A stretch of 24,565 nt of DNA from a virus. Positions 3,236-22,164 of this stretch are shown here, piece by piece; position 1 is the first letter of the stretch; every line of letters begins with the position of its first letter. The stretch covers positions 1 to 24,565 of IMG/VR virus record IMGVR_UViG_3300032271_000565; one strand, given 5' to 3'. The notes below the pieces were generated by a model, which saw only the letters and a program-made list of their open reading frames with translations, had not been told where the DNA came from and did not search any database. Made by a program: the position numbers and the translations under genes.

Positions 3236-4045
3236 TTAAACGGAAAACTTTTTTCCGTCAACAATGCAGGAATAATCTGGTGATACATGAATTAGTTGAA
3301 TATGTGGATATACACCATTTTCAATATGAGCAATAGCAAATGCTTTTTGCCAATTATGATTATTTGTATACATCATACCTGAACTCTTTTCATCACACAT
3401 ATGACCAATTTCATAGCCACGAAGTGTTTCACCTTTCCCGCCGTTTCGTAACTCGTATGTATTAAAATACACACCAGCACGATGGGAGTGACCACGAATT
3501 AGTGACACTCCAAAATTATCTACATCCTTACGAACTGATTCACCAGCATTCTGTGATATAGCATTTCCATGATGAACATGGATATCGCCAAATCTTAATT
3601 TTGGTGGCTCGTTGTAATAGATATAGTCGTATCCCAAAGAATCTAGACCCCATAATGTTTCTGGAGTAACTACTTCAATATGCTCTGGGAGCTTTGCATC
3701 AATATAATCAAAGATACGAATATCGTGATTACCCAACGCAGAGAATAGTTGAGCATTTTTAGCAATTTTTCTTGTCTTGGTATAAAAGTCTTTTGCTAAT
3801 TTTGCTTCATGTTGCATTAATGGAACGATTTGATCTCCATTATTATCCTTATACATTTTAAGGAATTCTGCAGATCTTCCCTCTGTATACTTGCTATAGC
3901 AAGCTTGATCATCAGTGTCTCCCAAATAATCGACAACATCTGGCTTAAACCATTTCATAATCTTGAACCAAAGTTCAATCATCTTGTCATCTTGATAGGG
4001 GAATTGCTGGTCAGACGAAATCATCCACTTAAGGTCGTTTCCCAT
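3236..4045 (-). CDS. Calcineurin-like metallophosphoesterase
   Basis: The 269-aa protein carries the ordered metal-binding motifs of the metallophosphoesterase superfamily: D12-x-Q14 in SSDQQFPY, GDTDD at 42-46, GNHD at 105-108, HVHHG around 156-160 and GHSH at 185-188. The first motif is usually D-x-H, so Q14 replaces a metal-binding histidine, a change I also associate with some phage members. The fold hydrolyses phosphoesters with a two-metal centre; the substrate here (nucleotide, DNA or other) is unknown. There is no signal peptide, so it should act in the host cytoplasm. The gene sits between an HNH endonuclease gene and the holin. The ATG at 4045 has only a weak upstream AGAAAG. Confidence 0.88.
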   Translation of the reverse strand: MGNDLKWMISSDQQFPYQDDKMIELWFKIMKWFKPDVVDYLGDTDDQACYSKYTEGRSAEFLKMYKDNNGDQIVPLMQHEAKLAKDFYTKTRKIAKNAQLFSALGNHDIRIFDYIDAKLPEHIEVVTPETLWGLDSLGYDYIYYNEPPKLRFGDIHVHHGNAISQNAGESVRKDVDNFGVSLIRGHSHRAGVYFNTYELRNGGKGETLRGYEIGHMCDEKSSGMMYTNNHNWQKAFAIAHIENGVYPHIQLIHVSPDYSCIVDGKKFSV

Positions 4046-4056
4046 TTATATACTTT

Positions 4057-4320
4057 CTACTTGTGAGCTTTTTTATGTTGCTCTCTTGTGCACAGAAATA
4101 GATTTTCTATTCTGTTATCTGTTTTATTTTCATTGATATGATGTATAGTTTCCCATACTTTTAATATTCTGTCAAGTGTTTTTTCAATTACAAGGCGATG
4201 CTCATAATACCAACCGCCAAAATTTTTAGGATGTTCAGGAACTTTAATTAAAACGTAGCCTTCTTTGGCAATCTTTTTTTCCCTGCCATCCCAGTTTTTT
4301 AAAACATTATAATTAAGCAT
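4057..4320 (-). CDS. HNH endonuclease, probable free-standing homing endonuclease
   Basis: From the ATG at 4320 this is an 87-aa protein with an HNH_3-type core: a YYEHRLVIEKTL strand-helix, then IHHINENKTDNRIENL (metal-binding H60, H61 and the conserved N73) and a C-terminal QH pair at 81-82. Such small HNH proteins nick or cut DNA and are common mobile insertions in phage genomes. An in-frame ATG at 4344 would add 8 residues but lies inside the upstream tail gene; the ATG at 4320 overlaps that gene's TAA by 8 nt and fits coupling better, though its ribosome site (CGGA) is poor. It interrupts a set of tail genes and the lysis region, as expected for a selfish insertion. Confidence 0.87.
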   Translation of the reverse strand: MLNYNVLKNWDGREKKIAKEGYVLIKVPEHPKNFGGWYYEHRLVIEKTLDRILKVWETIHHINENKTDNRIENLFLCTREQHKKAHK

Positions 4321-4756
4321 ATCCGATGGCAATAAGGTGAACATTTACGGAAATGTCTGACCCACTGCTGGTTTTTGCCTGAGAAATGTATACTGTAACA
4401 GAATTAGTTTTTGAATTATATACAGCATTATAATTAATATTATGAGGTGTTAGATCTTTGTCTGCACCAACTGTTATACTCAAAATTGGTGGAACGGCAA
4501 AATTTAATGTTGTCATATTAAATGTAGTAGTTGCCGTTTTTCCTGATTTTGGAAGACTAACATTTGGAGAGAGACCAGTATACATCTTTACAGACCCGCC
4601 TGTATCTCCTACAATTGGAAGTTGCTTGTCTGCTGCCTTGCTTGTACCTACCTGTGCATATTGATAATTAGGTACATTCAATCTTGCAATAGCAGTATCT
4701 CTTGAGTTTTTCAGATCATTAATATCTGATACTGTAATGCTAATATTGTCAGCCAT
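4313..4756 (-). CDS. Tail-associated protein with possible lectin-like C-terminal domain
   Basis: The 147-aa protein starts with a short helical part (SDINDLKNSRDTAIARLN), then a linker, then an all-beta C-terminal half containing FNMTTLNFAVPPILSITVGA and ending VNVHLIAIGYA. The order of a strand around F..PP..S, a middle variable stretch, and a terminal AIG strand is reminiscent of H-type lectin domains that tip some phage fibres, but the match is weak and is my reading only. The position right after fibre genes supports a structural or receptor-contact role. The ATG overlaps the upstream TGA by 8 nt and has GGAG nine bases ahead. Confidence 0.6.
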   Translation of the reverse strand: MADNISITVSDINDLKNSRDTAIARLNVPNYQYAQVGTSKAADKQLPIVGDTGGSVKMYTGLSPNVSLPKSGKTATTTFNMTTLNFAVPPILSITVGADKDLTPHNINYNAVYNSKTNSVTVYISQAKTSSGSDISVNVHLIAIGYA

Positions 4757-5135
4757 TTAATGGTTCTCCTTCTTTTTGGAATTCCGCTTCTTTTTTACTA
4801 ACAAGCAGAATGTCGTGTTTCTTAAATCCCAGTTCTATTAAAACATCTGGACTCGTAATTGAACATCTTTTATTGTCAACTATAACATATAGTTTACCAT
4901 TAGATATGTCTCTAATCAAAGTTCCGTCTCTGAATCCAACAATTCCTGATATTTGACAACGTGACATTGCTAGTTCAGATGTTTCAACTGTACGAAGTTT
5001 CCACGAGTCCCTTGCTCTATCAGAAATAAATTTAAATCGTTTTTCGCCTTTGACATAAAAGTAACCTTTTTCTGTCTTAGCAATCATTCCGCTAGGAACA
5101 CGGGGAGTATAATTAACTCTTTGCCTTTTGAGCAT
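4749..5135 (-). CDS. Hypothetical tail-region protein with a KLYVI..KR.I repeat-like unit
   Basis: The 128-aa protein is basic and beta-rich. Residues about 67-105 contain GFRDGTLIRDISNGKLYVIV, then DNKRCSITSPDVLIELGF. This resembles the small unit (G-T-L-[IV]-x-(5-6)-x-[VL]-Y-x-[IV]-x-x-x-x-[KR]-R-x-I) found singly or repeated in bacterial surface and phage structural proteins. The first half, GYFYVKGEKRFKFISDRA, looks like a diverged copy of the same unit, giving two in one protein. No function is known to me. The ATG overlaps the upstream coiled-coil gene by 23 nt and has GGAG nine bases ahead, so the pair is probably coupled. Confidence 0.65.
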   Translation of the reverse strand: MLKRQRVNYTPRVPSGMIAKTEKGYFYVKGEKRFKFISDRARDSWKLRTVETSELAMSRCQISGIVGFRDGTLIRDISNGKLYVIVDNKRCSITSPDVLIELGFKKHDILLVSKKEAEFQKEGEPLNG

Positions 5136-12990: not shown

Positions 12991-13502
12991 TAAATCTCCG
13001 TAAATTCCATCTTAATGTTAACAATATCTGTTAATCCAAAACGGTTTACTACCGTATAATCAAAAGCAGTAATAAATGCATTAAACTGCTCAAAGTTTGC
13101 TGATGCTGTATTTGTTGGGGTTGAATAAAAAGCTGATGCTGCATTCTTGGTATAATCATCATGTGAATGATTTATTCTTACAACAACTGGAGTAAAAAGA
13201 TTGGCTTCATAGAATGATTTTATCCAAGCCCCGCCCTTTTGTCCATCTACAGTTAAAGTATATCCTGAATCCGTACCAGTTGGTGAGTATGTCCCTGATG
13301 GCAAATCTTTCCAGTCTGTACCGACTTTTCTCTTTTTTGCTACAACAAATTTTCTCATAGTTCCATCTGCCATTCTTGCCACTTGTTCAACAAGATCGTA
13401 AGATATACTAATTGCTGATCTGTTGTGATCAGTTAATTGGTAAAATGTTGTTGGTGCTGAATTGCTGGCAATCATTATACCTGCTGATGCTGCATACGCC
13501 AT
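12990..13502 (-). CDS. Minor tail protein after the tape measure (distal tail candidate)
   Basis: The 170-aa protein is mostly beta-strand: RSAISISYDLVEQVARMADG, then TMRKFVVAKKRKVGTDWKDL, a glycine-rich turn, and a C-terminal FDYTVVNRFGLTDIVNIKME strand pair. The strand order and size would suit a small tail-tube or distal-tail type fold, but I recognise no named family. Position between tape measure and tail-tip protein is where siphophages encode the distal tail protein, so that role is the leading inference; typical Dit proteins are longer (about 250 aa). Start and stop overlap both neighbours in TAATG form, with TAGGAG before the ATG, so it is tightly coupled. Confidence 0.7.
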   Translation of the reverse strand: MAYAASAGIMIASNSAPTTFYQLTDHNRSAISISYDLVEQVARMADGTMRKFVVAKKRKVGTDWKDLPSGTYSPTGTDSGYTLTVDGQKGGAWIKSFYEANLFTPVVVRINHSHDDYTKNAASAFYSTPTNTASANFEQFNAFITAFDYTVVNRFGLTDIVNIKMEFTEI

Positions 13503-16500
13503 TATATTGCTCCTAGTGTTCTATTTGTTGCAAGTGATTTAGAGTTTCTTTCAATCTCTTGCATAATTAAGTTTGCAAGAGCATTTGCATCCATTCCCGC
13601 TCCTGCGTTCACTGTAATATTATACACTGAATTGTCTGTGTTAACGGAAGAGTTTCCTCCGCCAGATCCCCCAGCAAAGTGGTATGCTCTTGCTATACCG
13701 CCCGTTGCAAAGTTTGGCACAAAAGTTCCAGAGTTGATGGCATCTAAAACGGCGGGACCATAGCGTTTTACAGAAGAAGCCCTAATTACATATTCTCCAT
13801 TAGACAACATTGCTGGAATCATATCATCTGTAGGTCCACCTGGACCCAGTACTCTACCTGCATTAGCAAAGTATGAAATTGGTCCACCATTTGCCCGCCC
13901 CACATGTGTATTTCTTCCTCCATTCAAAGATGTTCTATTTTGATGTTGTGCATCTCCTGTTCCGCCAGTTGGATTAATTATTGCTAATGCATCAGCATAT
14001 GCATTTTGTGCTCCTTTTGCGCCCTGATATTTTTTATCTCCCGACAAAATTAATTCAAACATTTTTGCTTGAACCGCAGCACTCTTAAGTCTTCCTTGTA
14101 AACCTTCAACTGCAGCAGCAGCTGGTCCAAGATTTGGGTTCTGTTTGTATAAGCTATCAAGTGCAGTTTTCAAATCACCAGAATTTGATCCTGCAGTTGC
14201 CAAAAGACCACCAATTCCCTTTTGTCCCATCATTGCTTTGAAGGCTTCTGCTGCTGTTGCATACTTACCCGTATTGATAGCATCAAGCATTTTTTGTTGT
14301 AATGTTTCAGCAGCATGTGCAGCAGTATTAGTATTAGTTGTTACTGTACTTGCAGCATTTGCTGCAGCAGTGCTAAGATTATTAATTTGATCGTTAAGTT
14401 TAGCAATTTTAACTTGTGTTTTATCAATTGCATTTTGATGTTTTTCAACCTGATCATTAAGATTATTAATTAATCTATCGTGAGCATCTTGTGCACTTTG
14501 ATCATTTACAGCAGCATTGTAAGCATTTTGTGCTTCTGCCATTGCAAATAAATCTCCAGATCCCGCTGCCTGAGAAACTTTTGCTTTTAGATCTGCAAGT
14601 GTTTGTTCATTTTGAATGCTTTGTTTTTGTTGCTGGAATCTTCTATCTTCTGCTTGAATTTCTTTATTAAGATCTTTAATGGCTGCTTCTTGAACTTTAA
14701 TATAATCATTCAAGTGTTTAATTTGATCTTGTTTTGCCTTTGTATTATTTTGTGTGGCTGTAGTAGCAGCGTTTTGACCACTTGCATCTTTTGCTGTAGC
14801 ATTTGACAAAATTCCGCCCATTGCGCCAGCAACTGCTTGCTGAGCATTGTATTTACCAATCATAGACGCAGCAAATGATGCATCTTGACCAATTTTAAGA
14901 TAATCTGCTTCTGACATTTTCATTCCAGTCATGGCTAATCTAGTAGCTACAGCAATTTGACCCGTACTTACATGCATAGTGTGAAGTTTATTATTTAGTG
15001 CTGCAAGTGCTGGATCATTTTGTTTTACTTGATCATTAAATGCTTTATAAGCATCACGGGTTTTTAAAACATCTGACATTACAGTTCCATATGCCCCTTT
15101 AGATCCTGCCCCCTGTGTTCCACCAGTTAAAGATGCTATTTGTTGAGGACTCATAGCTATTGTAGAATTATATAAGCTACTTCCTGTTGATTGAAATGAT
15201 GCTTGTGTATCTCCATATTGTACACCTGCTTTAGCATATTGCAACATTGTTTTATAATAGTCACGGGGAAATAATTTTGAATAATCTCCAGATTTACCAG
15301 TTGCTTCTGCTGCTGCTGTTGTTGCTGTAAGGAATGCGTCACCTGTAGACTTAGGAATAAGTTTAGATAATCCTGTTGAAATATTTCCTAAAGTAAGACC
15401 TGTTATTCCAGAACCCTGAATCATCCCAAGTGCATCGGCTTTTGATTTTGCTTTTGTTTGTCCTAAAGCTAAATCTGAAAGATATCTTTGTTTTGCCAAA
15501 TTAGAAATACTTGTAGTGTCTCCAGATTTTGCGTAATTTTGTATTTGTTGTCTTGCTGAAGCAATTGTTGGATCTTGAGAATTTGCGTAAACTTGAGCAG
15601 CAGCACTAATTGCTGATGAATTTTTGCTTACCGCTTTTTCAGCAGTAATATTAACATTAGTAAAATCAGCAACTTTAATTCCTAAATTTTGAATTGATTC
15701 TGCCGTCATATCTGTTGCAGTTTTTTGTGCATCTGCCAACATTTGAGCTTTTTGTCTTTGCTCATCCATATATTTACTTAGCAAACTAAATCCTGCAACA
15801 GCACCTGCAATACCCAATGCAACTGGACCAGTGGCACCAAACATCATAGCCATACCGCCCATATTCATACCCATGCCAAGACCGCTTACTGCTGATTGAC
15901 CCATTCCTGGTGCCATTTTTGAACCCAATTGATCAAGAAGCATTCCACTCATCTGCATACCCATCATGCCCTTCATGCCCTTCATGCCAGACAAGAAACC
16001 TTTTGATCCTCCGCCACCTTCTGCAACAACTTCAGATTGTAATTTTTCAGCAGCAGCTTTTGCTTGAGCAGGTGAATATCCTGCACCTCTATATGTACTA
16101 TAATAATCATACAAGCCTTTTGCTCCAGCACTTGGATTTGCAGCATACTGAGCTAAGTTTCTTTTCCTTTCAAGGTCTGCATTAAACATAGTCATTGTTG
16201 TTGAAATCTTAGCACCAGCTTCTTTGAATGAATCTGAGAACTGCATGCCTTTCATCATTACCGCTTCTTTAGTAGATGTAAAGGCTGTACCAATCTTATC
16301 AGCACCATATCTAATTTGAGAATTAAGCATGTCTGTTGCTGGCAATGATTCAACATTTCTTAGTACTCCTCTATTAGCATTTGAGCCTCCGTAATATTCA
16401 CCTGGTCGATTTCCAAATTGAAGATTATATGCAGATTCTCCCAAGAGAAGTTTTAATAAATCTCCACCACCCGACAAACGCATTGGCGATGATGGTCTAC

Positions 16501-19500
16501 CCATTCTAAATCCTACACCACCACCTGAAGCAAGGTGGGCGGTACCCGAATTAATTCCATCCATAAATGATGAGCCATGTGCAGCAACTGCTTCTGGAGA
16601 CATAACATACTCACCATTTGAAAGCATTGCAGGAATTTGACCACCTTGTGCAAATTCAAATAATGGAAGTTCTGCAACTGCTCCTTCTAAATTAAATATT
16701 GTATCAGACACAGTTGCAATTTTTTCAGGATTTGGCAAACTATTTCTTCTCATATGTGCAGCAATACCTGTCATCGAAGCTAATTTATTGGCATATGCTC
16801 TTTTCCCTCCAGCCAGCATCGATTGTTGAAAGGACATAGAGTCTGACTCATAAGGACTATTTGGATCAAATGGTCTAGAAGTTCTAATTCCTGCAGGACC
16901 TCTAGTTAATAATTTTTGTCCTATTAATCTTGGGTCTCTTAAAAATCTTGAAAATTCTAATGCTTCTTCATATGAAACTGGCTGACCATTTCTTAAAAGA
17001 ACATTATTTACTAATGGATAATCTTTTACTAAATCAGAATTAGCCCATCCATACATTTGTTTTAATAACTGATTGTAAGATGTTGGAGCCATTGTAGTTA
17101 GTCCAGGAGTGAATAATTTATTTCCTCCGAAAAAATGTGATTTGTCCCATCCACCAAAAGTATCCATATTGTTTAAAGAGATAAATTGATCTAATGCTGA
17201 ATAATTTAGAGATCTTGCAAGTTTGTCAAACTTCGGTCTCATCATTGTATCTTTTCTTGATACAGGTCCTGCATTAGAAAGATATTGAATTGCACCACCT
17301 GTAGCATATCCATTATTAATAGCATCTAATGTTCCACGACCATATTTACTTACTGAAGATGCTTTAATTACATATTCCCCGCCTGAAAGCATTGCAGGAA
17401 TTTTATCATCCGTTGGTCCACCAGGACCACTTATGTAGCCACCTGTGGCAAATTTAGGAGTTGTTGCAATTGCAGTTGCTTGTCTAATTAATTGATTTGA
17501 TTGACCAGTTGTAGCACCAATTGCTGAAAGTCCCGCCCGATCTGCTGCTAATGAAATTCCAGTTTGTATCTCTGCTGCACCTAGTGCTGCTGCTTCTGGG
17601 TTCATCATCATCATAGATTGCATAAGAGCTTCTCGCTCCATTGTAATTCTTTGAACAATGGCGGTGTCAATTGCATTAAGTTCTGCATCTAGACCCATTA
17701 ATGCAGTTCTAATTGCACCAACTTTTTGACCCGCTTCGCCTTCCATAGAGACTTTAATTTCTGAAATAATTGATTCAACTTTTGCAGAATTACGAATTCC
17801 CAATTCATAAATTTTTTGTTCCATTGCCAAGTGGTCTGCAAGCTTTGTATGAAATTCTTCTTCTGAGAAAATAACATCATTTATATAAGATTCTGCTTTT
17901 GCTTTTTGCTCTGTTGTTAAATTTTCTAATTTTACACTTTCTGTTCCAAAAAGATCTACCAGTTGTGCTTTTGCAATATCATCTGCTTTTGAAATGCCCA
18001 TAAGGAGTTTGTCATGCTCTTCAATTAGAGATTGCATATTCTTTTCTACAAGTGCTTCTTTTGTAACTCCCGTTTTTCCACCATAAATAGCTTCTGCAGA
18101 ATTCATCTTGTTATTAAGTACTGATCCTATACCTGCTGGAGCAACTGTCCATTGTGCAGGAAGTCCACCTCTTTCAAGATATCCGCCTTGTGCTGAAAAT
18201 GCTGGACCAATTTGTGATTCCATTGCCATCATGTTTGGATACTTCATTCTTTCTTCAGGAGACATATTGATATATGCTTCTCTTAAAGAAGAACCCGCAA
18301 ACATATGAGGTCTAACAATTCCAGTAGTTTTGCTTGCATTACTATAGAAAGGATTTACTGTTCTAAAGTCTGAGTAAGTTTGATTAGAAACAGGAATAGC
18401 TGGCATTCCAATTCCCATTCCAGGAATTCTTGCAAGTTGTTCAGCCATTTTTGCAATTGCTGCATTTAAAATTTCATAGGCATCTGCGGTAGTATGAACA
18501 GATGATGTAAGACCATCTTGAAGAGCTTTTGCTGCTTCAATTCCCTTGTCTGTTTGCTGAAACATTTCGTTCATAGACTTTATGCCTGTAAGCAAGCCAC
18601 CTTGTGCAAAGCCTCTTCTAAAAGCACTAAGAGAAGTATATGCTTTAAAAATTTGACCAGCTAAGTTAGTAAACAAACCGACTAACATAATAATTGGACC
18701 TGCAACAACCATACCTGTAAGACCGCCACCAATAAGCATGCCTAATATATGACCAACTGGACCAAGCATCTTGCCAATTCTTCCAACAAATCCTACTACT
18801 TTATCAAGTGCATTTCCAATTGCAGTAAAATCTTTTAGGAATGTTCTGCCTAATGGAATAAGGTCTGCTTGTAAAGTTGCTTTCATTTTTTGGAATTGTG
18901 CTGCTGGTGTTTTATTACTTGCAACATCAATTTCTTGTTTTGCAACTGCAGCAAGTTGAGCATTTGATTGTCCATAAAGTTGAAGCACTTTAGCACTCTG
19001 AGATCCAGACTTACCTAAGTTATCTAAGAGAGCGGTAACACGAGCAAACTGGAACTTACCAAAAAGTTCTTCAATTGCACGAAGCCTTTCAGATTTAGGT
19101 AATGCATCAAGAGATTGCTGAAGACCTTGAACCATTCCCATAACATTATTTGCATTTTTAGAAGCAAGTTGTTCTAAGTCAACACCCATTGACTTAAAGT
19201 CTTTCTTTGCCTGTGTGGTAGGTTTAATAATAGATGCAATCATAGATTTAATTGCGTTAGCACCTTGTGCAGCAGGAACACCTGACTCCTTCATAGCTAC
19301 AAGCATTGCAACGAAATCTTTATAAGTTCCGCCCATCTGTTGAATAATTGGACCAACACGAGGAATTGCGTCAATAATATCTTGCATTGTTGTAGATGTA
19401 GAGTGCTTTGCAGCATTAAGGAAGTCAACAGCACCTTGAATTTCATTTGTTTGTAATTTAAATACGTTTTGCAAAGATACCATAGCACCAGCTGCTTGAT

Positions 19501-20374
19501 TTGCTTGCAAGTCACCTAGTTTCATCAATCTGGTAGTTGCTTCAGTAGCACTAATAAGATTTTTTCCTTCAAGACCGATTGATGAAAATGTTTTTGCAAC
19601 TTCAACTGTATCGGACATTGCCACGCCCATAGTTCTTGCAGTTTTATCCGCAAGGTCTGTTACGGCTTTTTCAATTTGATCAAGTGTTGCTTGTGACTGA
19701 ACTACAGCATGAGCACCATAAACTTTCAACATAGAAGTCATTTGCTTATCAAAATCTAGATAAGCTTTAGATGCTGCTGCTCCAAACATTGCTAGAGGCA
19801 TTGTAAGACCTACTGTGAGCTGACGACCAGCCCACTGGGTATTTTTACCAAAGTTAATCATACCTGTGGAGATTGCTCTCATGGTGCTATTTAGAGCAGT
19901 CATTCTAACTGCTGCTGCTTCAGATGTTGCACCAAGTTCTTCTACGCTTGCATTGGTAGAAGTAATCATTTTTGCATATCCCGCCATTTGCGGGTCAGGC
20001 ATAAATACAGACTTCATTAACCTTGTTTGTCTATTAACAAGGTCATTCATTAATTGAGACCCACCCTTGGCTTCTTGTCGCCAAACTCTCCAAGCTTCGC
20101 TAAGTCCTACTTGACCTTTTGCCAATCTTGTTGCAAACTGATCCACATGATCAGTCATCTTGATAGATTCAATATTAAATGCTTTTGTAGCAAGAACAGT
20201 TCTTTCAAACTCTTGCCTAATAGTTCCGATTCTATCGGAAACAGCTTTCATCTGTGAAGGTCCACCAATTGGGACACTTTGTAATTCTGCTACACTTGCT
20301 TTAAGTGCAGCAAGTTGGCTCTCAAGTTGTTTAAAGTTAGCAATTGCCTCAACTTGAATTCTTACATTAGCCAC
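13502..20374 (-). CDS. Tail tape measure protein
   Basis: The 2290-aa protein is the longest in the window and follows the frameshifted chaperone gene, which is the classic tape measure position. Residues 1-60 are coiled coil. Residues about 175-500 form the TP901-type core (NTQWAGRQLTVGLTMPLAMF through the VAMKESGVPAAQGANAIKSM region). Hydrophobic segments lie at about 540-580 and 1500-1530; long coiled coils at about 1880-2010. Three copies of a GGPTDD.IPAML..GEYV unit occur. I see no lysozyme or NlpC/P60 motif. The protein sets tail length; at the usual 0.15 nm per residue it predicts a tail near 340 nm. The start is GTG, sharing one base with the previous TAG and seven bases after GGAGG. 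Confidence 0.95.
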   Translation of the reverse strand: MANVRIQVEAIANFKQLESQLAALKASVAELQSVPIGGPSQMKAVSDRIGTIRQEFERTVLATKAFNIESIKMTDHVDQFATRLAKGQVGLSEAWRVWRQEAKGGSQLMNDLVNRQTRLMKSVFMPDPQMAGYAKMITSTNASVEELGATSEAAAVRMTALNSTMRAISTGMINFGKNTQWAGRQLTVGLTMPLAMFGAAASKAYLDFDKQMTSMLKVYGAHAVVQSQATLDQIEKAVTDLADKTARTMGVAMSDTVEVAKTFSSIGLEGKNLISATEATTRLMKLGDLQANQAAGAMVSLQNVFKLQTNEIQGAVDFLNAAKHSTSTTMQDIIDAIPRVGPIIQQMGGTYKDFVAMLVAMKESGVPAAQGANAIKSMIASIIKPTTQAKKDFKSMGVDLEQLASKNANNVMGMVQGLQQSLDALPKSERLRAIEELFGKFQFARVTALLDNLGKSGSQSAKVLQLYGQSNAQLAAVAKQEIDVASNKTPAAQFQKMKATLQADLIPLGRTFLKDFTAIGNALDKVVGFVGRIGKMLGPVGHILGMLIGGGLTGMVVAGPIIMLVGLFTNLAGQIFKAYTSLSAFRRGFAQGGLLTGIKSMNEMFQQTDKGIEAAKALQDGLTSSVHTTADAYEILNAAIAKMAEQLARIPGMGIGMPAIPVSNQTYSDFRTVNPFYSNASKTTGIVRPHMFAGSSLREAYINMSPEERMKYPNMMAMESQIGPAFSAQGGYLERGGLPAQWTVAPAGIGSVLNNKMNSAEAIYGGKTGVTKEALVEKNMQSLIEEHDKLLMGISKADDIAKAQLVDLFGTESVKLENLTTEQKAKAESYINDVIFSEEEFHTKLADHLAMEQKIYELGIRNSAKVESIISEIKVSMEGEAGQKVGAIRTALMGLDAELNAIDTAIVQRITMEREALMQSMMMMNPEAAALGAAEIQTGISLAADRAGLSAIGATTGQSNQLIRQATAIATTPKFATGGYISGPGGPTDDKIPAMLSGGEYVIKASSVSKYGRGTLDAINNGYATGGAIQYLSNAGPVSRKDTMMRPKFDKLARSLNYSALDQFISLNNMDTFGGWDKSHFFGGNKLFTPGLTTMAPTSYNQLLKQMYGWANSDLVKDYPLVNNVLLRNGQPVSYEEALEFSRFLRDPRLIGQKLLTRGPAGIRTSRPFDPNSPYESDSMSFQQSMLAGGKRAYANKLASMTGIAAHMRRNSLPNPEKIATVSDTIFNLEGAVAELPLFEFAQGGQIPAMLSNGEYVMSPEAVAAHGSSFMDGINSGTAHLASGGGVGFRMGRPSSPMRLSGGGDLLKLLLGESAYNLQFGNRPGEYYGGSNANRGVLRNVESLPATDMLNSQIRYGADKIGTAFTSTKEAVMMKGMQFSDSFKEAGAKISTTMTMFNADLERKRNLAQYAANPSAGAKGLYDYYSTYRGAGYSPAQAKAAAEKLQSEVVAEGGGGSKGFLSGMKGMKGMMGMQMSGMLLDQLGSKMAPGMGQSAVSGLGMGMNMGGMAMMFGATGPVALGIAGAVAGFSLLSKYMDEQRQKAQMLADAQKTATDMTAESIQNLGIKVADFTNVNITAEKAVSKNSSAISAAAQVYANSQDPTIASARQQIQNYAKSGDTTSISNLAKQRYLSDLALGQTKAKSKADALGMIQGSGITGLTLGNISTGLSKLIPKSTGDAFLTATTAAAEATGKSGDYSKLFPRDYYKTMLQYAKAGVQYGDTQASFQSTGSSLYNSTIAMSPQQIASLTGGTQGAGSKGAYGTVMSDVLKTRDAYKAFNDQVKQNDPALAALNNKLHTMHVSTGQIAVATRLAMTGMKMSEADYLKIGQDASFAASMIGKYNAQQAVAGAMGGILSNATAKDASGQNAATTATQNNTKAKQDQIKHLNDYIKVQEAAIKDLNKEIQAEDRRFQQQKQSIQNEQTLADLKAKVSQAAGSGDLFAMAEAQNAYNAAVNDQSAQDAHDRLINNLNDQVEKHQNAIDKTQVKIAKLNDQINNLSTAAANAASTVTTNTNTAAHAAETLQQKMLDAINTGKYATAAEAFKAMMGQKGIGGLLATAGSNSGDLKTALDSLYKQNPNLGPAAAAVEGLQGRLKSAAVQAKMFELILSGDKKYQGAKGAQNAYADALAIINPTGGTGDAQHQNRTSLNGGRNTHVGRANGGPISYFANAGRVLGPGGPTDDMIPAMLSNGEYVIRASSVKRYGPAVLDAINSGTFVPNFATGGIARAYHFAGGSGGGNSSVNTDNSVYNITVNAGAGMDANALANLIMQEIERNSKSLATNRTLGAI
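13705..13855 (-). repeat. Tape measure IPAML repeat, copy 3
   Basis: This encodes roughly residues 2174-2224, including GPGGPTDDMIPAMLSNGEYV and then IRASSVKRYGPAVLDAINSG. It is nearly identical in protein sequence to the copy near residue 1000, but the DNA has diverged at many codon third positions, so it is an old duplication under selection or a conserved unit. Confidence 0.75.
15965..15988 (-). repeat. 9-bp tandem repeat in the tape measure gene
   Basis: About 2.7 perfect copies of a 9-bp unit (CATGCCCTT on the plus strand) encode the GMKGMKGMM part of a methionine-rich stretch. The reading frame is kept because the unit is a multiple of three. Confidence 0.8.
16545..16652 (-). repeat. 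Tape measure IPAML repeat, copy 2 (diverged)
   Basis: This encodes about residues 1242-1277, with GGQIPAMLSNGEYVMSPEAV and AAHGSSFMDGINSG. The GPGGPTDD lead-in of the other copies is missing, but the IPAML.(N/G)GEYV core and the C-terminal INSG element are kept. Confidence 0.7.
17300..17455 (-). repeat. Tape measure IPAML repeat, copy 1
   Basis: This encodes about residues 974-1025, including GPGGPTDDKIPAMLSGGEYV, then IKASSVSKYGRGTLDAINNG and a GYATGG turn. It matches copy 3 at most positions of the core. Confidence 0.75.
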
Positions 20375-20993
20375 TAGATTTCCTCCACATATCCCAGACC
20401 TAAATCAATACCAAAGCCAGCTTCTGCTGCTTTGTATCCTTTAAGACCTGTGATGTCATTTTCATTTTTGTCTTGCTCAACTTTTTCAGAAAGATCAACT
20501 CCCTGAATAGCTGCATTGAATTTGTTTGACCTATCTTCTTTTTTGTGAATTGCTTTAACTGTTGCAAGCAATTCATCGATAGATAATTCAGATTCAAGCT
20601 CTTCATAATTTTTCCAACGACCTAAGAGGAAAACCTCTGATTCTAACTCGGCTAAGTCTAGTTCAGACCAACTAGACCCGCCGTTTGAAGGTTTGGGTCG
20701 TTAAGTTTCAGTCCTCCAGCCACTTCAAGAATTCTCATCATAGTTGGAACTTCAATGATTTCTTCAAAAGCATCTTTGTCTTTAGAAAGCTCTGGCTTAA
20801 ACTGCTCTAGGCAAACCATTGCTGCTTCAATGAAAATCTCCATAACCTGATCTTCTGTTGTAATATCTTCTTGTTCAGTCTTTTTAATGACTTCCATAAA
20901 TTTCTTTAAATTTTTAATGGATAGTGGTCTAATAGTCAAAGACGAACCATCCGAAAGTTGAATTTCCTCAACTTCATATACTGTTGTTGGCAT
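20374..20993 (-). CDS. Tail assembly chaperone G-T fusion, made by -1 frameshift
   Basis: The frame of the G protein continues, after one base is read twice at CCCAAAC (20697-20691), through an open frame to TAG at 20376-20374. The product is about 206 aa: 101 residues of G, then 105 residues starting PSNGGSSWSELDLAELESEV and FLLGRWKNYEELESEL. The WSELDL and LGRW pattern is typical of the T part of siphophage G-T chaperones, which binds the tape measure while the G part recruits tail tube subunits. The T part has no start codon or ribosome site of its own in the right place. It ends one base into the tape measure start. Lambda gpG/gpGT is the model for this family. Confidence 0.88.
20658..20993 (-). 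CDS. Tail assembly chaperone G (unshifted product)
   Basis: Normal decoding from the ATG at 20993 gives 111 aa beginning MPTTVYEVEEIQLSDGSSLT and stopping at TAG 20660-20658. It is acidic and helical in its second half (EDQVMEIFIEAAMVCLEQF), as expected of gpG-like chaperones that coat the tape measure during tail assembly. A TTG 27 bases upstream could open the frame further, but AGGAG stands seven bases before the ATG at 20993 and the predicted transcription start lies downstream of that TTG, so the longer form is rejected. The gene follows the major tail protein and its terminator. Confidence 0.87.
   Translation of the reverse strand: MPTTVYEVEEIQLSDGSSLTIRPLSIKNLKKFMEVIKKTEQEDITTEDQVMEIFIEAAMVCLEQFKPELSKDKDAFEEIIEVPTMMRILEVAGGLKLNDPNLQTAGLVGLN
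20691..20697 (-). promoter_or_regulatory. Programmed -1 frameshift slippery heptamer C CCA AAC
   Basis: The zero-frame codons GAC CCA AAC contain CCCAAAC, an exact X XXY YYZ heptamer, 33 bases before the G stop codon. Slipping back one base joins G to the open T frame. It is the only perfect heptamer of this kind I found in the overlap between the two frames. Confidence 0.82.
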
Positions 20994-21020
20994 ATTTTTA
21001 CTCCTAAATATCTTATACAA

Positions 21021-21029
21021 ATTATACCA
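21021..21029 (-). promoter_or_regulatory. Extended -10 promoter TGGTATAAT before the chaperone genes
   Basis: A perfect extended -10 box follows directly after the terminator of the major tail protein unit. The predicted start near 21014 gives a leader of about 20 bases with AGGAG before the ATG at 20993. The region 17 bases upstream (TATGTT, 21049-21044) is a weak -35 and overlaps the terminator's T run. Confidence 0.65.
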
Positions 21030-21039
21030 AAATATATAG

Positions 21040-21076
21040 AAAAAACATAAATACCCCCCAAAATTTGGAGGGTATT
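21040..21076 (-). terminator. Intrinsic terminator after the major tail protein gene
   Basis: On the minus strand a 10-bp stem (AATACCCTCC paired with GGGGGGTATT, one G-U pair) encloses a 7-base AT loop and is followed by TATG and six T. It lies 20 bases after the major tail protein stop and works only in the direction of transcription, as the other side has no matching A/T run. Confidence 0.85.
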
Positions 21077-21096
21077 CATGTTAAGATATTTGATTC

Positions 21097-22164
21097 TTAT
21101 GCGTTTGTGTAAACACGGTCAATAATTACACCGTATTCTGCACCATCGTACAAGTCACTATCGTCTGGAAGACAACGGAACTCCACTGGGAATTCTGTTG
21201 CAGCATCACGCTTCAATCCATGAGATGATGTAATCACCTGAACAACACGGCGAGCAACGTATACACGCTCCTTGTTTGTAGTTGTTACATTTGAAGTACC
21301 ATTCTTGATTGTACCTGAAGCAGTTCCAATACCTGATGCAGTAGCACCAAACTGTGCTGGAGCATTACCAACAGCAACAATAGAACGCTCCACTGGGGCA
21401 TCACCAAGAGCACCAGCTTCAATGTTTAAGGTTGCATTAGCATTGCTTGCTGTATCAACAACAATGTTGATTGTAACATCATTAGCTGCAGATCCAGTTA
21501 CACCACCTGGGTAGAACTGTGCTGAACCATAAAGAGTTGCACTACCTGAAGCTGCAGTGTTACCTGGATCAACCAAGATCACAGTAGCTACGGCACCAGA
21601 AGAGTTGCGAACAACATTCCACAATGCGCCACCCGCAGAAATTGGGCTAGTTGTAACCGAATTTGCTGCAGTTGCTAGTGTTGAACCTGATGCTGAAATG
21701 CTTGCGCTTGTTGCACCACCAGTGTTGTTATTAAGCATAACTGGATAGTTACCTGCACCACCTGCGTATGTTGTGTACTTCTCGTTCTGACCAAATACAA
21801 GCTGCAAGTTCTCAAGAGTACCTTCTGTAAGAGAAGTTCTCAAGATAACCTTTAGAGTGTGCTTGAAAAGACGGGCAGCATCAAGAAGCTGATCAACAAC
21901 AACATCATTGTAACCTGGTTCGTAAGAGACCTCAAGTCCAGTGTTTGTGTATCCTGCATCTCTCCAGTAAGAGGAGTTTGTAAGATAGTTTCTTGCACTG
22001 GTGGCTGGGGTCCAGTTAACATCACCCTGTGTGTTTACTAGAGATGAGATTGTTTGTGCCTGTGTCATTGAGACACCTGGCTTTGTTACTGGGCGGTATG
22101 CACCCGTACCACGAGATACGAATAATTGTGCAGCACCGACCAAAATATTTCTAACGTCTGACAT
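21097..22164 (-). CDS. Major tail (tube) protein
   Basis: The 355-aa protein begins MSDVRNILVGAAQLFVSRGT and GAYRPVTKPG. The N-terminal part (NTQGDVNWTPATSARNYLTN, later NTGLEVSYEPGYNDVVVDQL) and the C-terminal part (RVYVARRVVQVITSSHGLKR then EFPVEFRCLPDDSDLYDGAE) form the tail-tube-like fold seen in siphophage tube proteins. Residues about 150-270 are an A, S, T, G and V rich insertion that may be a surface-exposed domain on the tube. The gene has its own promoter and terminator, and its G+C in sampled 60-base lines is 42-52 percent against about 27 percent in a sampled tail terminator line, which fits codon selection in a very highly expressed structural gene. Its place before the G/GT chaperone is diagnostic. 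Confidence 0.87.
   Translation of the reverse strand: MSDVRNILVGAAQLFVSRGTGAYRPVTKPGVSMTQAQTISSLVNTQGDVNWTPATSARNYLTNSSYWRDAGYTNTGLEVSYEPGYNDVVVDQLLDAARLFKHTLKVILRTSLTEGTLENLQLVFGQNEKYTTYAGGAGNYPVMLNNNTGGATSASISASGSTLATAANSVTTSPISAGGALWNVVRNSSGAVATVILVDPGNTAASGSATLYGSAQFYPGGVTGSAANDVTINIVVDTASNANATLNIEAGALGDAPVERSIVAVGNAPAQFGATASGIGTASGTIKNGTSNVTTTNKERVYVARRVVQVITSSHGLKRDAATEFPVEFRCLPDDSDLYDGAEYGVIIDRVYTNA

Follow-up and report, generated by a model that had tools for sequence, protein, structure and literature searches.

In phage lambda, the slippery heptamer at which the tail assembly chaperone frames G and T are joined is GGGAAAG. The lambda locus lies between the tail tube and tape measure genes and makes GT by a −1 shift, with T as the C-terminal part; the excerpted text of PMC5009743 describes a G half that covers the tape measure, a T half that brings in tube subunits, and a G:GT ratio determined by how often ribosomes slip. 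Here, we describe a pair of overlapping frames of this kind on the minus strand of IMG/VR virus record IMGVR_UViG_3300032271_000565, analyzed over positions 1 to 24,565 (24,565 nucleotides, hereafter the window). Its likeness to lambda is one of layout; the heptamer here is CCCAAAC. Homologous proteins occur in the Stanwilliamsviridae, a family of Streptomyces phages that includes Yaboi, Moab, Faust, and others, with matches of 39 to 46% to G in the 39 Streptomyces rows listed and of 40 to 54% to T in the best 20 of 127 rows. CCCAAAT is present in 8/8 Loccivirinae records, and some records annotate the join; the 5/5 Boydwoodruffvirinae records differ in carrying CCCGGAA at the homologous place. 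We conclude that a programmed −1 frameshift on C CCA AAC very probably joins G to T in the window, giving GT, and that the window is an ordinary, well-supported member of the known lambda G/GT type of recoding system. The novelty lies in the comparison with relatives, which shows a hairpin supported by covariation, a slippery site particular to one lineage, and what seems to be an exchange of frameshifting for duplication in some relatives.

Gene G, which would encode a short tail assembly chaperone of 111 amino acids, runs from an ATG at 20993 to a TAG at 20658 (20658 to 20993). T lies in the −1 frame relative to G and is open from stop to stop over 20374 to 20700, ending in a TAG at 20374. 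The overlap of the two frames is as the first-pass annotation had described it, as is the lack of an early start in T: with ATG, GTG, and TTG scored, the first start codon is a TTG at codon 44, and the one further candidate is a GTG at codon 105. The heptamer C CCA AAC (20691 to 20697) is in register with G and falls within the overlap, as had been claimed; its distance from the G stop had been put at 33 bases, which holds only if the stop codon is counted, and is 30 bases measured from the heptamer end. A shift at this point would join 101 residues of G to 105 residues encoded by the shifted portion of T (20374 to 20691), for a total of 206 amino acids. The junction, read from the sequence, is LNDPN followed by PSNGGSSWSELDL, in line with the predicted succession of DPN and PSNGG. 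The fused product was also correctly expected to run to the tape measure start, a GTG that overlaps the T stop at 20374, and the open reading frame (ORF) listing contains exactly the miscall of T that had been anticipated, a TTG-started ORF of 65 amino acids at 20374 to 20571. Across the 22 ORFs of the window (7803 codons), 55 in-frame heptamers have the XXXYYYZ form, including 3 CCCAAAN, and the chance of meeting one in the 14-codon overlap is ∼10% for any kind and ∼0.5% for CCCAAAN. Because a heptamer of some kind has a chance of about 1 in 10, a single genome is insufficient, and the proof lies in conservation across relatives.

We gathered relatives by G and T searches of IMG/VR plus phage records; each scan retained no more than 80 of up to 581 relatives, and many contigs are near copies. 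The first set included the window itself (L015) and one locus without a matching G (L063), and all of its 99 other loci with both halves combined the −1 relation with CCCAAA[C/T] at the homologous place. Wider scans gave 209 loci with both halves, which reduce to 139 distinct 180-nucleotide junctions: 116 with CCCAAA[C/T], 17 with CCCGGAA, 3 with other canonical heptamers (GGGAAAA in L108, AAATTTG in L154, and GGGAAAC in L176), 2 in-frame G-T fusions (L127 and L130), and 1 with a deletion in G. Loss of the heptamer from relatives with an intact frame had been raised as a point that would tell against the shift; in every case, CCCAAA[C/T] was replaced by a canonical heptamer, by CCCGGAA, or by an in-frame fusion. 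The heptamer of L176 is read as G GGA AAC and encodes other residues (EGN), and that of L154, A AAT TTG, lies one codon further on; slipperiness is conserved rather than the DPN residues.

For a codon test, we located the site through its protein sequence ([DN]P[NE], close to where G ends) and not by a nucleotide motif, and the pattern was present in 66 of 70 representatives (<90% identity). The Asp codon at the site was GAC in 65/65 (one further row has Asn in place of Asp), the Pro codon preceding Asn was CCA in 58/58, and the Asn codon was AAC in 37 and AAT in 21, as the frameshift model permits; the remaining 8 of the 66 read GAC CCG GAA. Elsewhere in G, GAC and CCA account for 42% and 68% of their synonyms, respectively. 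As judged from synonymous codon choice, the Asp and Pro codons at the site are constrained beyond the amino acid requirement; the representatives are mutually related, so the test is given without a probability. Shine-Dalgarno-like runs of at least five matching bases were found 5′ of the heptamer in 25 of 52 sequences, compared with a mean of 15.8 (standard deviation, 3.3; maximum, 29) in 300 codon shuffles, and an upstream Shine-Dalgarno stimulator is suggestive, not established.

A hairpin of 14 pairs can fold in the window 7 nucleotides 3′ of the heptamer (20649 to 20683; z of −2.8 over an 80-nucleotide stretch), with the G stop codon in its 3′ arm. Among 52 representatives, the 50-nucleotide stretch after the heptamer had a mean z of −1.55, versus −0.52 for the G interior and −0.20 for the T interior. 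We assessed covariation in 23 distinct sequences that share the window's spacing, using a stem model taken from the window. In these sequences, 87.5% of cells were paired, a measure that the window-derived structure favors, and double-change cells (for example, GGC/GCC to GAC/GTC and AAC/GTT) numbered 27, versus 12.4 in shuffles (0/500 as high) and no more than 13 with the model slid. Three of five covariation measures exceeded every one of the 500 shuffles, and each of the five exceeded the slid versions. The stem is also kept in L046 (read by eye), with its register shifted by one base. In a branch of relatives that encode G and T as one continuous ORF, the homologous segment had a mean z of −0.26 (33 sequences), compared with −1.93 for 40 CCCAAA sequences, the G+C of these segments being 0.37 and 0.51, respectively. 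As the hairpin is weak where no shift is needed, the T protein alone seemingly does not force it. On this comparative evidence, a hairpin a few nucleotides 3′ of the heptamer is maintained by covariation. No Rfam match was found within 20500 to 20800.

The T frame past the G stop gave ratios of nonsynonymous to synonymous substitution rates (dN/dS) of 0.11 to 0.31 against four of six relatives, with synonymous sites saturated in the other two; by this measure, T is under purifying selection. G matches phrog_10504 (E value, 8.9e-30) and T matches phrog_10474 (4e-10), both without an assigned function. All of 30 G-family members matched phrog_10504, and named chaperone families in PHROGs matched 1 or 2 of the 30 each (best E value, 0.0047); in Pfam, T4_baseplate matched 2/30 (best E value, 0.0011) and the mycobacteriophage tail assembly family GP24_25 matched 2/30 (0.033). 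For the predicted G fold (mean predicted local distance difference test [pLDDT] score, 76), Foldseek ranked the HK97 tail assembly chaperone 2OB9 first (probability, 0.94; E value, 0.09). The top three matches from a second aligner were YqbN (3KLU), which we take to be a prophage chaperone, at Z 6.4, 5IR0 at Z 5.1, and 2OB9 at Z 5.0, scores that are middling by the tool's scale. Most of the listed Streptomyces phage homologues are annotated as tail assembly chaperone and the others as hypothetical protein. The best PDB sequence-profile matches (E values of 0.041 for G and 0.29 for GT) were unrelated proteins and were rejected.

We propose that most ribosomes would terminate at the G stop, producing the short chaperone, and that a minority would pause at the hairpin. 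Both tRNAs would then slip one base back on C CCA AAC, the P-site codon changing from CCA to CCC and the A-site codon from AAC to AAA, and translation would enter T to yield the 206-residue GT protein. If lambda is a guide, the tape measure would be coated through the G half and tail tube subunits would be recruited through the T half, with the frequency of slipping fixing the G:GT ratio. With the IS3 pseudoknot in Escherichia coli, 61/64 heptamers were frameshift prone, and CCCAAAC is not among the three failures in the excerpted text of PMC4066793.

T could instead be a separate gene, translated from its own start codon or by reinitiation past the G stop, and annotators have often called it so: only Francob, Yaboi, and Francesca, 3 of 15 phage records, have a joined chaperone feature, and the other 12 list G plus a separate or truncated T, such as the 19-residue T of Faust. 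We consider this very unlikely, given that no ATG, GTG, or TTG precedes the conserved W in the T frame of any of the 106 loci in which the W was found (2 of 108 were unscored), that in almost every locus listed the T frame opens just a few codons ahead of the heptamer, and that kin carry G and T as one continuous ORF. Transcriptional slippage would result in an identical protein and is less probable still; the runs at the site are just three C and three A, and the register of the conserved codons, the distance to the hairpin, and the alternation with CCCGGAA would fit tRNA re-pairing rather than slippage by the polymerase. The least probable explanation, which we regard as negligible, is that a sequencing error or recent frameshift mutation has split one gene. 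A one-base difference would indeed fuse G and T, but the −1 overlap is retained in 136/139 distinct junctions, which were drawn from numerous samples and isolates. We favor programmed −1 frameshifting because of the gene position, the conserved −1 relation, the synonymous codons of the heptamer, the hairpin, the selection on T, and the kin with a continuous ORF.

A number of observations weigh against this conclusion. The 17 of 139 distinct junctions with CCCGGAA do not have a classical heptamer. In the excerpted text of PMC4066793, AAG and AAA slip better than AAC or AAT in E. coli, and CCCAAAC is outside the 21 patterns searched for; together, these leave the slip strength in the phage's own host unproven. 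The mean z over 80 nucleotides (−1.61) is close to the T-interior control (−1.10), and the hairpin structure under the covariation test was derived from the window itself. Two of the covariation measures resembled the shuffles, with 7 versus 5.6 pairs showing a double change (109/500 as high) and 17 versus 16.7 further pair types (291/500 as high). RNAalifold found no double-change pair in the spacing-40 group (20 sequences), in which the stem hardly varies. As for the protein, named chaperone families match weakly (phrog_344; E value, 0.011), a Pfam scan of the window's G returned no chaperone family, and the fold match is by itself not significant (E value, 0.09; Z, 5.0 to 6.4).

All five Boydwoodruffvirinae records have GAC CCG GAA in the homologous position, and their −1 frame is closed shortly before it. 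CCCGGAA is carried by L102 to L104, L106, L109, and IMG/VR kin within L112 to L126. Hairpins of five to seven pairs begin 6 nucleotides after CCCGGAA in 6/9 folded cases, and the other 3 fold differently. PRFect proposed CCCGGAA as a hypothetical “threetwotwo” slippery motif via G:U re-pairing (PMC10885494, as excerpted), and the junctions found here match that motif exactly. They differ from the PRFect case in being backed by a downstream hairpin and by a place homologous to that of CCCAAA[C/T], and this homology supports the PRFect reading of slippage; the window itself has a classical heptamer.

The in-frame fusions trace to a larger branch. Among 60 loci of L127 kin, 53 have a single G-T ORF and 7 keep the −1 overlap, with similarity to tape measure in 55/60. 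Immediately downstream of the fused GT, a separate G gene follows in 51/53 loci, and in the remaining two the contig stops after a further 51 and 122 bases. The fused branch comprises L211 to L263; in L211, for example, GT occupies 3998 to 4684 and G occupies 4731 to 5072. With start codons set by rule, Shine-Dalgarno runs of at least 5 bases preceded the fused GT in 0/38 distinct upstream regions; in 31/38, an extended −10 element (at most one mismatch) ended 5 to 7 bases 5′ of its start. The separate G had such a Shine-Dalgarno run in 36/36 and no such −10 element in 36. A −10 element adjoining the start without a Shine-Dalgarno run implies that the fused GT message should be mostly leaderless. 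The fused-branch GT structure model had a mean pLDDT of 70.8, with a poor C-terminal part.

In a tree of T (97 rows), 20 fused rows plus L176, L264, and L265 formed a clade of 23 (99/97) within the frameshifting family, and the fused rows alone formed one clade in 54% of bootstraps. In a tree of G (70 rows), the GT copies formed one clade (100/97); together with the separate G copies and L176, L264, and L265, they made up a clade of 43 (100/96), in which those three loci grouped with the separate G copies (98/89). L176, L264, and L265 may even descend from an ancestor with duplicated genes; alternatively, the tree may misplace the fast GT copies. L264 and L265 are of the frameshift type with very short overlaps, and their heptamers (CCCAAAC and AAACCCA) start 10 nucleotides before the G stop. 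Rooting on the single long-branched row L108, together with how widely frameshifting is spread, suggests that frameshifting is the older state. In this branch, gene duplication has probably replaced programmed frameshifting: GT would be one ORF, its message mostly leaderless and lacking a Shine-Dalgarno sequence, and excess G would come from an additional gene preceded by a strong Shine-Dalgarno sequence. If so, control of the G:GT ratio would have moved from ribosomal slippage to initiation and transcription; in sister groups, the slippery site itself alternates between CCCAAA[C/T] and CCCGGAA.

A published title reportedly describes tail chaperones made without a frameshift; the fused branch likewise would have none and differs in being kin of a frameshifting one and in having a second G gene. 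Literature on chaperones that lack a frameshift, are duplicated, or are leaderless, as represented by listings and abstract openings of incomplete coverage, did not describe the fused branch. In the excerpted part of a paper on mycobacteriophage Cluster O, leaderless promoters lie at other genes and the chaperone is made by a frameshift. None of 130 phage records matched the fused protein at >60% identity, and the 15 listed all match as two pieces. Searching a genome collection with the fused family yielded one relative, a G-T pair of the frameshift type with CCCAAAC, on a contig labeled uncultured cyanobacterium.

The hairpin, the CCCGGAA variant, and the branch without a frameshift go beyond the first-pass annotation. 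A single family that includes classical sites, CCCGGAA, and a frameshift-free branch offers a natural experiment on the fixed ratio of a two-form chaperone and bears on how recoding can be swapped for plain gene regulation. The comparison also corrects a likely annotation error, in that T would be the C-terminal part of the chaperone and not a small TTG-started gene or a gap. In public phage records (L017:1792-1851 and similar), T appears as a 19-residue gene, as in Faust, or with a late internal start.

The G/T pair lies between the genes for the major tail protein and the tape measure protein. The tape measure gene (13502 to 20374, minus strand) matches PF10145 (E value, 2.7e-30). The major tail (tube) protein (21097 to 22164, minus strand) matches phrog_2175, a protein with an Ig domain (6.8e-25), which is also how the major tail proteins of related phages are labeled; its match to Phage_TTP_17 (6e-5) is under the Pfam cutoff. 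Upstream of G, we read from the sequence a Shine-Dalgarno element, AGGAGT (21000 to 21005), 6 nucleotides 5′ of the ATG, and an extended −10 element, TGGTATAAT (21021 to 21029), 27 nucleotides upstream of the start, which a two-hexamer promoter scan of the window did not report. Such elements are common in the family: 97/104 frameshift-type G starts have a Shine-Dalgarno run, and 96/104 distinct ones have an extended −10 element (at most one mismatch) within 60 nucleotides, in 92 of the 96 at 22 to 30 bases upstream. In the interval that separates G from the tail tube gene, a strong terminator-like hairpin of 18 pairs followed by a T run (21044 to 21082) precedes the extended −10 element (21021 to 21082 overall). 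This arrangement suggests that G, T, and the tape measure gene may share a transcript of their own.

L063 and L155, which represent one contig (3300008262_000552), have lost most of G while keeping the heptamer and T; this contig may reflect an assembly error or a defective phage, and both loci were excluded from the tests. The homologous G-T pair with CCCAAAC in the metagenome-assembled genome labeled uncultured cyanobacterium (L271:4001-4605) possibly lies on a misbinned phage contig.

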